From Apoderus coryli (lineage: Eukaryota > Arthropoda > Insecta > Coleoptera > Attelabidae): DNA of 64,000 nt. Below, one piece after another: positions 9,701-15,700 of the stretch. The notes beneath the pieces were generated by a model. That model had not been told where the DNA came from. It saw nothing but the letters and a program-made list of their open reading frames with translations, and searched no databases. The DNA lies in NCBI GenBank assembly GCA_911728435.2, contig OU452202.1, positions 15,727,135 through 15,791,134 of the forward strand, written 5' to 3'. The first letter of the stretch is position 1; every line of letters starts with the position of its first letter. The translations under genes were made by a program, and so were the position numbers.

Positions 9701-12700
9701 GAGCCTACGTGGTAACAGCAAGAAATTGTGCAAAGAAAGATGCGCCAAGCTCGCTCGAAGAACCTTTCTATCAAATAGAGTGGTATATGCGTGGAATGAT
9801 ATGTCGGAGGAGGTTGTATCAGCGCCAACAGTGAATAGTTTTAAGAACAGACTGGACATTACGCTTAAAGATCGGGGCAGCTGCATGATCCACTACTCGT
9901 TATAGTTATATCGTCGTGTTTTTATACACTGAGCCGAGTTTTATCTTATATAAATCGGGCGACAGTCTCATCGGTTTCACCGCTAACTGTCTGAACTAAT
10001 AATAATAATAATATCGAGATGCGTTTCGGAAATATTACTAAAAACCCATCGTGGAATTTACAAATAATCTGAAAAACAAAGCATTTTTCGATATATGTTC
10101 ATATGAAAAAACAATCTTATTTTTGCTTGCAGAATGTCCCCTTAAATTGTTTTAAGTTAATTTCGGGACACCCTGTATATATTCGTTAAAAAATTATAAT
10201 CAAATCTGTACATAAAAATAATATAAAAATTTCGCAACTTGTACACAAGTAGGCTTTGGAAACAAACAGCAATTACATCTGTTGAATGGTTGACAAATAG
10301 TATTCATGTGATAGCTTGTAATATAAGCCAAACATTTGATATTCAATCAAGGGTTATACATGCCTTTTAGTGTAGTCTCACTGAGCTTAAAACACAGCCA
10401 ACACCGCTGAAGGAAATAAGGAGAATATTAGGGTTAGGGCACAGTTAAAATAAGCAACGTGTCGGCACGTCTGATGTACATGGGTATAAAGCAATTCGCC
10501 GCGCTTATAGTATAGTACAGTATCTTATAGTATATATAGATGCGGGACCAGAAACGAGCTGGGAATGCGACGAGTCGATGCCGTTTTCAGCGTTAAGTGG
10601 ACCTTCTTGTATATAGTTAATATTCGATGGTTAGGGTATACATTTATACACAGCCCCCTCTAGACAAGCCATGAACAGATAGATAATAAATAATAGTATC
10701 TACGTTAAGATATAAAATGGGTCTCTTATAAGAAGTTTGGGACGCTGTACTTGATAGCATGTTAAATATAGTAAATGTGAAACAGAGAAGAAGAAAATAA
10801 AACAAACTTTACAACATAACTATATACACAAACAACACTGACTTACCTGCACTTCTGCATTTACTCACTGCCTCAGGTACAGACGGTTTAGGTGGGTCTA
10901 GTAAGGATATCATGCCGACAAATCGTAATCCTACATTACAAATCATATTTTATTCAACTATAATATTAAGTATATAGAAACACTGCATTAGCATCTAGAA
11001 GAGTAATGTAACTCGGCTTGTCAACTTATTTCAAATTTTGGTCTAGGCAAATGGTAATTTATTATCATCAATCAGCATAAGTTTCTGGTTTTAATCGCAA
11101 ACCAGTTGCGTCCAACGACTCCGAACTAGTTTGACTATGGCAACAATTCAAATTAACCAAAGTACTGTTTGATGATGCTGATGATTCTCAACTGTACGCT
11201 CGTATACCGGGTGGTCCATTTATCTTGAGACAGACATATCTTAAAAACGGAACATTTTTCGGAAAAAAAGTTCAAATAAAAATTCTTTGCTATTGTGGGG
11301 GAAAAACAATGGTGGTACCCATTGGCGAGTTTGTCAACCGTTTCAAGGTTATCACAAGGTCAACTCGTTTTTTCTTAATGGAAACATCGAAAAGATAATT
11401 GAACAACAGATGAGAAAGTATGTAGAGAGCAATAATATACTTCCAAATACGCAGTCTGGTTTTCGACCGGGGTACGATTGTGCATCTGCACTCACTGATG
11501 ATGTGATTACTGCAACCAAAGACCTTATTAATACAGGAGACCACATTGTTTACGTTTTCAGGGTTAGCAAACATCGTCCCTTCCTCTATTTATCCTAATA
11601 CAAGCATTGCCAGACTTACAAATGTATTTGGAATATCTTTAAATTTTTGTCACAACATATAAAAAATGAGCAATGTAAATAATTATTTGTAACTAGGATG
11701 TTAATAAAAAATTTTATTACTATACTTAGGTTATAAATTAGTTCATTTTAAGATTAAATTGTACAAAACGGGATAATTATTTTATTTTAGGAATTATTCT
11801 CATAGTAAAATAAAAGCGCACTACGGCAACATTGTTTACAACTTCACGCTTCTTGTACGACAGAAATCGGCGTTATGAATGAAATTATAATTTGCGACGT
11901 TGACGTTGAGAAACCCTCATGTCATTAGCGCTTTTAATCGTTTTTTGAAGTATTTTCCTGTTTTGCGATATTCTTGTGTGTGTTTTTTTAAACTTTAAAT
12001 ATTTATTGAATAACTATGGTTCGTGGTTGTGTAGTTTGTGGAAAAGTGGATAGTTTATTTCCAGATTTAACTTTTCACAGGTAAGTGTGGTTATGTTTGG
12101 AAATTTGTTTGTGTTTGGTGTTAGTTTACACAGTGGCGGGGTTTGTTTGATATGATAAATTTGTTACATTTTGAATTTTTATTTCTATTAAATTATTAGT
12201 AACAAAAGCAAACAGATACTTTCTGAAAATAATGTTGGTTCATTTACGCCCAACAATGTAACCGCTTAGTAATTCAAAGCAGCATTAAAGAAGTAAGTGG
12301 TAAATCTACATAGGATATTACCTCCCTAGCTCTGTAGTATAAGGCTTATTATAGCCTTTTTACATTAGGTACTTATATTTTACTTTTTAAATTAGGTTTC
12401 CGCAGGAACCGGAAAAACGAAAACTCTGGTTTTCTTTAGTTGGCATTGCTAAAGGACCACTTTTGCCAAAAAATCCATGGTTATGCTCGGATCATTTTTT
12501 CCCAGAGGATCTGGTAACGAAATCTAAGAGAGCAAGCTTCGTTAGAAAGGGTGCAAATCCTCGACGGTGTGAAGGTGAGAGAATTATTCGCAATCAAATA
12601 GACTTCATACTTATTAAAAAGCGATACAGAAACTGCATAAAGTCTGCAAAAACATAATTAATTTGTATGTTCATAGTAATTATTATGTATTATCATTGTG

Positions 12701-15700
12701 TATAATTTAATATATGTAGCTAAAAATAAACTATTGAGAGTAATGTGCCTTTTTTTATTTCCTGACTTCCTATTTGTAATGCATAAAATGATTTTAAAAT
12801 TAGATTATCTTCAAATTATACATAAATATATTAATTTAAGTATCGTTTCTTCGATATACGAAATGAAGGTTTTTCAGCTATATCAAGAAATACCTACTAC
12901 AAAGAAAGATTAACAGCCTTTCTTAGCGAATACCTTATACATATTAATATTTAAATTATTTTACTGAAAAACTCATTCCAATTAAATATCGACTAAATTT
13001 CAGTTTCAAAATAAGTTGAATAGCGGTTAAATTCTCGGCACGTTGGCCTTTTAATGTATGCTATTAATTATGTATTGTATACATAGTTCAAAAGCAGTCA
13101 GCGATCAGTACGCCACTGGCTGCAGAACGCATAGCGGAGATTACAACGTTGCCAATGAGCAACTTGAAGGCGACAAGGATAAGTCTTTCTCGCTCTTACA
13201 CATTACTTGTTTACAAGTAATGTTGGCTCGTGTTTGAAAGCACGTTATCAATGAAATATATTGTCTCCTGTGTTACTAAGGTCTTTGACTGCAACGGACA
13301 ATAAAAAACTGAATCTTCTAACGTTGCTTGATTTTACGAAAGCGTTTGACACACTTAATCATCAGCTTTTGGAGGCAATACTAGGGTATGTTGGATTGTC
13401 ACAAAGATCTAGCAATCTGATAACCAATTATGGTGCAAATAGGGTGCAGTCGGTCTGTTACGGTGGACGAGCCTCGGGCTACTTGAGCGTCAATAGGGGG
13501 GTGCCTCAGGGGTCAGTATTGGGACCACTTTTGTTTACGATATATTCTTCAAGTTTTCCCTCACATGTGACTAATTGCAAACAACACTACTTTGCTGATG
13601 ATGCACAACTTTACTTGTCCTTTTTTTTAAAATATAAGGCTGTCTCAAGATACATCACGTACCTTGTAGCGTAAAATTAATTTTATCTGCATGAAACACA
13701 TAACTAGCATCGTACTTCTCAGGCATATAGAAATCTGCAAAAGCCAAGACTCGTTCTCCTTTGCGACCCAAATTCATCAATGACCGTTTGATTGGTTTCG
13801 TAGTGATTGGATTGATAGGCAATTCTTCACCTTCTCTCAATATTGTTGTGCAATGTTCCAGCACTTTTTCCGGCGCCCCTTTCATCACCATCACGAATCG
13901 TTGCGTGGGTAAACGATGAATTGACACTTGGTATTTGGTTGATGAACTGAATGGAATCTCACAAACCTTTAAATAATTATTAACAAACAAGTACTGACAG
14001 AGCAACGCCACGTTGCATGATATTAGGTATGTAACAATTCTAACAATACTCACCTTTGGACATTCCGCTCGTATACCCTCAACATCACCAAGCAATGCAT
14101 CCATAATTTTCAGAATAGCAGATTCACTAGCATCCCCAACAATACCTTTCTCTTCCTGATTGTTCGTCGATGGTACAAACCTAGCTCTGCTACATAGAAC
14201 AGCTACAGTTGATAGAGCTTTATAAGCCTCACTATCATCATTTAAACTCTCCAAATTTTGCAGTACATCATACTCGATCCCATCGAAATAGAAATGCGAC
14301 GCTACCATTTTATTTTGTGTTAAAGTTCCTGATACAAAACTCAAAGCTAAATACAACACAAACATTATCATTCTCTATCTCACCAGTTTTATCGGAACAA
14401 ATCACATTGCACGCACCCAAAGTTTCAATAATCTCAAACTTTTTAATTAAACAATTCTTTTGCGCCATACGTTTCGCAGTTAGGGTCAGGCATGTGGTAA
14501 AGGCCACTGGTAATCCTTCTGGTACGTTTGCTACCATGATCGCAATGAAGTACGTGAAACTTTGAAAGAGACCGTATCCCAAACCCATGGAAATTCCAAA
14601 TAGTGTTCCAGCAATTATAAAGGCAATCGCTGATAAAATCCTGACGAATACATTTAGTTCTTTGCGTAGTAGAGTTTCGCCCTTTTTCAGACCTGATGTC
14701 AGTCCAGCAATATGACCTTGAACAACGAGAATTACAAAAAATGATCTTCCGATATTACAATGTAAAATTGTGGTTATCATGTTAAGGAAGAACGCATGGG
14801 GTCAAGTTCTCGCCTGATTCATTGGGATATCGAATGCTCGTGTACTCAATATTTTTTTTGTGAATTTGGTATTTTACAATAGAATTTTCGCATAGATTCA
14901 TTACCTTCAGAAGAGTAAAAGTATCATTGGTAAATACTAGGCAGAATTGCAAAGTTTAAAGGACGATTTGATTTGGCTAAGAAACAAATCTTATTTCACC
15001 ATAACAATACACCAGCGTCAGATGTTGCGTTGGGAGAAATATCCATCCTACATGTTCATCAAATGAAGCCCACAGTGATTGTCATTTGTTAAATTAGCTA
15101 GGAGGTGAACCTTTTGACGCAACGGGGAGGTTCTTCATACGGTAAATGCGTAATTTGAGGAGCTTGACGAATCGCTCTAAAAAAATGGTACAAATGCATT
15201 AGAACACTGTTATAACAGATGTATTAATTTTGACACAGATTATATTGAAAAACGCTAGTTGATCAATTAGCATAATGAAAAAAGCAACGACAGTGCAATC
15301 TTAATCGACTGCAAGGCTTGCCATTGTTATCCTAGAAAAAGCTACTCGCCAAGCAAATGCTGTACCGACTAATTCTTATGTTCATACACTGACCACAGTG
15401 ATGATGGAGATGTCGTCCTGTTAGAATTGTTACACTGAGTCAAAGAGAACTTCTTGCCATTAGAAGCAGACTCATTCAGCTCAGAAGCAAATCTATTGCT
15501 TGTTATCTCATCCCGGACTTCAAGTCAGACAGGCTGACCTCTTTGCTCTCTGAGTTGCAGTTGCACGCTCGACTTTCTTTTCCCACAGGCGAAGTCTGAC
15601 CCTACTCTCTCCTCCATTTGTTACGCCAGTAGTTTCGGAGAGATCAACCTCCGTACTACGCACATCTGATGTTAGACTAAAGCTCCAGAAGCAATCAATG

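Follow-up and report, generated by a model that had tools for sequence, protein, structure and literature searches.

A probable KP-like deletion derivative of a P-superfamily transposon, with a predicted THAP-LINE fusion frame, in the beetle Apoderus coryli

In Drosophila, truncated proteins that keep the DNA-binding domain act as repressors, and the KP of Drosophila melanogaster is a 207-aa repressor produced by a small non-autonomous P element (PMC7776569). In experimental P invasions, deletion derivatives can take over, being probably mobilised preferentially and possibly repressing, and a KP-like repressor is recognised there by an interrupted transposase and a retained DNA-binding domain (PMC12393704). 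The P-related miniature inverted-repeat transposable elements (P-MITEs) of Anopheles gambiae have P ends round a non-P centre, for which ectopic gap repair was proposed, and are thought to borrow the P transposase (PMC1562414). Here we describe a P-superfamily insertion of 1771 bp at positions 11517-13287 of a 64,000-nucleotide stretch of Apoderus coryli (GCA_911728435.2, contig OU452202.1, 15,727,135 to 15,791,134, forward strand), hereafter the window, together with its relatives in the genome. No paper on this P family was found in the open-licence literature, as judged from titles and the first lines of abstracts.

We consider it highly probable that the window copy is a KP-like, internally deleted, non-autonomous P element with the history given below, the last step of which is a hypothesis. 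Its terminal inverted repeats (TIRs) match at 23 of 25 positions, its tips are CA and TG, and the flanking 8-bp duplication is perfect. The limits, ends and duplication proposed in an earlier note on this DNA are exact, and the ends recur genome-wide. The features of the insertion and its target are:

11245..11516, + strand: left flank, first part of the reverse-transcriptase frame of a long interspersed nuclear element (LINE), interrupted as the insertion target (from flank joining)
11509..11516, + strand: left copy of the 8-bp target-site duplication, ACTGCAAC (read from the sequence)
11517..11541, + strand: left TIR, 25 bp, 23 matching the right one (end pattern found genome-wide)
12016..12080, + strand: exon 1 of the THAP gene, MVRGCVVCGKVDSLFPDLTFH plus 2 nt, followed by a GTAAGT donor (splicing predicted)
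12081..12395, + strand: intron 1, GT..AG, 315 bp (predicted)
12396..12577, + strand: P-derived portion of exon 2, with the remainder of the THAP domain as far as ANPRRCEG (Pfam; alignment with the beetle proteins P0001 and P0002)
12576..12577, + strand: deletion junction with a 2-bp TG microhomology, where longer copies go on through the remainder of exon 2 and additional P exons to a LINE endonuclease piece (copy alignment)
12578..12657, + strand: LINE endonuclease-derived tail of the frame, ERIIRNQIDFILIKKRYRNCIKSAKT, with stop TAA (comparison with longer copies, Pfam, alignment)
12725..12730, + strand: AATAAA shortly 3' of the stop, a candidate polyadenylation signal (function inferred)
13263..13287, - strand: right TIR (alignment to the left end)
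13288..13295, + strand: right copy of the target-site duplication, ACTGCAAC (read from the sequence)
13296..13671, + strand: right flank, rest of the interrupted reverse-transcriptase frame, RVT_1 (flank joining and Pfam)

When the flanks are joined with a single ACTGCAAC, an open reverse-transcriptase frame results, the right part of which scores as RVT_1, so the P element was inserted into a LINE. The characters of the P superfamily are present, with TIRs of about 30 bp starting with CA, an 8-bp duplication and an N-terminal THAP domain (PF05485 above the cut-off). A 28-base end pattern with up to 3 mismatches gave 425 matches in the 428-Mb genome and 0 in the reversed control; since both ends of one copy can match, this corresponds to about 200 copies, and the absence of other copies, which the earlier note had named as a refutation, does not apply. 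Pairing 100 listed left with 100 listed right ends produced 80 pairs ranging from 1.7 to 7.3 kb, 44 of them of 2.9 kb, while 20 left ends, that of the window among them, stayed unpaired. We aligned 19 copies picked as the best matches to the window, namely the window copy and 18 complete ones from 20 fetched stretches (L013 and L015 were left out), with lengths of 1771-3617 bp. The duplication is perfect in 18 of these 19 oriented copies and 7/8 in L009, and counting by eye it leans to G at the first (15/19) and C at the last position (16/19). Chance is no credible explanation for the ends and duplication of the window copy, given the 425 matches against none reversed and the 18 perfect duplications. 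The copies point to a young family that has recently multiplied. The RNase H/GTP-binding catalytic region is absent from all 19, including the window copy, which is thus a non-autonomous member of the superfamily.

The predicted exons (12016-12080 and 12396-12657) join in frame into a 108-aa product, in which Pfam finds THAP with 35.7 bits (cut-off 23.9), and a search of solved structures returned three entries at E <= 10, the best being THAP domain-containing protein 2 (E 1.1e-5). The complete two-exon THAP frame reported earlier is therefore recovered under predicted splicing. The final 26 codons are LINE endonuclease and not P, and the frame is a THAP-LINE fusion created by a later deletion. 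The earlier description of a P gene in which only the DNA-binding module remains was right in that no P catalytic domain lies in frame downstream of the THAP exons; it does not hold as a neat cutting back, given the LINE tail and the lack of the catalytic region throughout the alignment. As for a THAP binding site, exact words common to both subterminal regions reach 10 bp (for instance TTGTTTACAA at positions 316 and 1691 of the element), but the longest shared word is at least as long in 109/200 dinucleotide shuffles of L016; these words are consequently no evidence for a site and were rejected.

Among the longer copies, L012 and L016 (3.5 and 3.6 kb) have seven exons with consistent splice phases and a predicted product of 322 aa, although the first donor of L012 is damaged. 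The prediction runs through THAP, a linker and a basic region resembling a coiled coil (by eye) to ASVTGPAANIFENLLAGK.RYNESLKA, where the similarity to P transposases stops. A predicted transposase of the longhorn beetle Molorchus minor (P0003) aligns with exons 5-7 of the family at 55% identity over 142 positions, up to YNxSL, which is the break point of the family; P0003 continues beyond it into FALTLSFYSAKAYNFVRR and carries the P helix-turn-helix (HTH), RNase H (RNaseH_N) and GTP-binding (GBD) domains, whereas the family stops there. Where this continuation would be stands a LINE endonuclease piece, detected as Exo_endo_phos on the frames of L055 and L016. Its relatives comprise 175 proteins at E <= 1e-5, and the named ones among 120 listed are mostly craniofacial development protein 2-like, a label we take to be the usual tag of LINE endonuclease fragments; the piece is presumably of the RTE type. 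The tail RIIRNQIDFILIKKRYRNCIKSAKT also aligns as endonuclease. The last 79 bases of the LINE region up to the stop are kept in all aligned copies, with a 28-base gap within the tail region of L014 and L017 (seen directly for L014), and hence at least the LINE tail occupies the place of the P catalytic region in 19/19. The named relatives of the P gene come from Sitophilus, Psylliodes and Molorchus, all of them beetles. The P ends around a central sequence unrelated to P recall the P-MITEs of A. gambiae described in PMC1562414, but the beetle family retains THAP exons and has a filler that is identifiable.

In its first 1061 bases the window copy shares about 99% identity with other copies; it lacks everything from the end of the THAP part of exon 2 to the end of the LINE piece; one base beside its junction is unlike the other copies. 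Its frame crosses into the LINE piece without a shift, which would happen by chance in one case out of three, and terminates at the TAA of the family. Its 5' part is nearest to L014, a 2.9-kb copy (99.5%), and its 3' part to L026 and L012 (98.1%); because these are different copies, its history may include exchange between copies. A similar deletion is found in L009 (C5, 1796 bp), its left breakpoint being 18 bp and its right one 3-4 bp away from those of the window. L009 keeps THAP but leaves the LINE frame, and its predicted product ends at 94 aa. Since the 5' parts of both copies are nearest to different copies and the breakpoints differ, we read the two deletions as independent events. Only these two copies span the junction query among the 40 of 386 candidates scored, and a second copy with the exact window junction was not found among them; in this respect the multiplication of a derivative, characteristic of KP, is not seen.

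We propose the following history. First, in an ancestral P element of the kind of the Molorchus predicted transposase, a piece of RTE-type LINE endonuclease would have taken the place of everything from the HTH onward, most likely through gap repair from an ectopic template. Second, the resulting catalytically dead chimera would have been copied to about 200 sites by a P transposase in trans, as the shared ends, the duplications and the lack of a catalytic domain suggest. Third, the window element would have arisen from a 2.9-kb copy when a further ~1.1 kb dropped out between two TG dinucleotides, which put the THAP exons in frame with the LINE tail. Fourth, as a hypothesis only, the 108-aa THAP protein, if transcribed, could occupy the element ends and weakly compete with the transposase, as KP does. 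Against the background of P derivatives in Drosophila, the window copy is most simply read as a deletion derivative that is neutral and was mobilised in trans.

A donor was sought in several ways. The profile search for P RNaseH_N (PF21787) scored 150 of 252 candidates, and the 150 matches listed have no left end within 14 kb among the 163 distinct ones compared; 162 of these ends are on contigs with such a match, the nearest being 14.4 kb off. In a search for CA...TG ends with an 8-bp duplication, ends were found in L055 only, itself a family copy. A fuzzy TIR search (<=8 substitutions in 26) over L029-L056 gave, beyond L055, five matches, all at 8 (L033, L042 twice, L050 and L053), which were taken as chance. 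The 322-aa protein of the family matches the fetched transposase loci weakly. The genome matches nearest to the Molorchus protein bear stops (C1:19146571; C1:11147253 and 11147680; C1:26450221 and 26449953), and the identity with it is 42% for an open frame of 759 aa on C11 and 39% for one of 528 aa on C18. The five longest paired copies (4.98-7.3 kb) all contain exon 2, by position, and are thus family members with extra sequence.

Several points weigh against our account. The donor transposase was not found, so that mobilisation in trans is inferred. The search may also have overlooked an autonomous copy, as it scored 150 of the 252 PF21787 candidates and read 216 bases (L063) of the five longest copies. 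The list of left ends covers 100 of 114 of one variant and the window's own variant up to C12, and diverged ends may have escaped it. Open P transposase frames do exist in the genome (759 aa on C11 and an 859-aa family), being less related to the family; for these, and for the frame on C18, to act as donors, they would have to accept the family ends. Finally, THAP is open in all 19 aligned copies, a possible hint of constraint, in a sample chosen for its likeness to the window.

Whether THAP is constrained bears on a first alternative, in which the whole family would be a self-limiting repressor lineage encoding THAP plus linker, with the window copy as a merely shortened member. Predicted products of 184 aa in ten, 186 aa in two, 161 aa in two and 114 aa in one of the aligned copies come from frames shifted or stopped ahead of the coiled coil with THAP open (15/19), and the dominance of the 2.9-kb class is in line with such a lineage. 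However, the substitution pattern in THAP looks neutral. The exons hold 15 replacement changes over 211 sites and 5 silent ones over 62 (pN/pS 0.88, Fisher p 0.78), and variable sites are 20/275 in the exons, 20/315 in intron 1 and 36/499 in the 5' region. No stop occurs in exons 1-2 of these best matches to the window, yet L028 has lost the histidine of the WLCSDH motif (H55Y), presumably a zinc ligand. In a wider set, exon 2 bears a stop in 26 of 150 scored copies (311 candidates), and the 124 open ones are compatible both with weak constraint and with a young family. The earlier note had named random decay of the THAP frame among related copies as a refutation, and such decay is partly observed. 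Twelve of the 26 stop-bearing copies were read. Nine equal-scoring copies each have a TGA inside THAP, the three of these nine that were read share one TGA, and L069 has it too; a subfamily with a broken THAP has therefore multiplied, as expected with mobilisation in trans. We regard a repressor lineage as unlikely.

The earlier note had raised a second alternative, a repressor encoded by the window copy itself. It would be KP-like, with the 108-aa protein expressed, binding the ends, lowering transposition and kept for that reason. The copy has an interrupted transposase and a retained DNA-binding domain, the two marks named in PMC12393704. Its frame is open with predicted splice sites and a downstream AATAAA, and the independent deletion of L009 likewise keeps THAP. 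Like KP, it is an internally deleted P element with its ends and THAP exons kept and a short THAP protein encoded. KP reportedly dimerises, and it is widespread; the window copy, unlike KP, lost the coiled coil for dimerisation with the deletion, has a LINE-derived tail and a junction found once, and its repression is only hypothetical. In addition, replacements make up two of the three exon changes private to it, THAP evolves in the family as if neutral, copies with a broken THAP multiplied, and among the 163 left ends compared no autonomous partner was found that it could repress. The likeness to the putative repressor derivatives of PMC12393704 extends to the fact that derivatives can outnumber full-length elements, but full-length donors and expression were followed there, whereas the search in the beetle found no donor. 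Of the repressor proposal, what stands is the presence of the two marks. A self-encoded repressor role is possible on the sequence, which yielded no positive evidence for it, and we give the full KP-like version little probability; it is more probable that the window frame is a side effect of a young neutral deletion than that it has been kept as a repressor.

A broader and very doubtful conjecture is that this orphan P lineage, with its roughly 200 copies, is maintained by THAP-only proteins that block P transposases in trans, the independent THAP-keeping deletions (window and L009) being favoured because they repress. Domestication of the THAP frame as a host gene is extremely improbable, since the reported domestication of P-element THAP domains (a title cited in PMC1562414) and a Psylliodes protein with the same THAP type but no P catalytic domain are outweighed by a window copy that retains its TIRs and a perfect duplication, lies inside another transposon, is nearly identical to other copies and shows no constraint on THAP. 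The Psylliodes chrysocephalus protein (P0002, 324 aa) is a prediction with a different C-terminal region; either gene prediction fused two genes here or a host gene has captured a THAP.

Under the preferred reading, a neutral, trans-mobilised deletion derivative, the case is mostly ordinary, similar internally deleted copies being well known in fruit flies, and the single window copy is of modest interest. The nameable LINE filler, the THAP-LINE fusion frame and two near-coincident independent deletions are unusual but need no new mechanism. With this locus, P elements that are internally deleted but keep THAP, as described from Drosophila, are also seen in a beetle; here the foreign filler is identifiable and the break point falls in the HTH region. 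Because the genome has many other P transposase frames, one can now test whether P invasions outside flies are halted by deletion derivatives.

Other P families were also observed. Four loci (L037, L038, L039 and L056; C5:14411500, C1:33194400, C7:30888500 and C15:2993000) share a repeat of more than the 6.7-7.0 kb compared, with copies 99.7-99.9% identical; its 859-aa P transposase frame is uninterrupted and carries RNase H N/C and GBD. The 859 aa are kept in at least 33 copies, and the first 1200 bases are 100% identical in 40/40 scored (1110 candidates). A 207-aa frame with a DDE_Tnp_1_7 match, which we take to be of piggyBac type, lies 1.9 kb upstream, and the repeat is a very young, possibly composite element. 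C24 carries four copies of another P family (e.g. L040 and L041; C24:1053000-1060000 and C24:1590500-1597500), whose open frames have 444-554 aa and which share one score that is seen on no other contig among the matches listed. Within the THAP family, one copy is apparently inserted inside another (L014/L015, C12:8349736-8355400), and L055 (C20:10878000-10884634) is a copy with a perfect GTCTATAA duplication and an insert of ~1.2 kb holding a 233-aa frame that presumably resembles a mariner-type transposase. In the window, a coding stretch for a P-type cation ATPase (PF13246; 13658-14374, minus strand) adjoins the LINE and the P element and contains an apparent unspliced intron.

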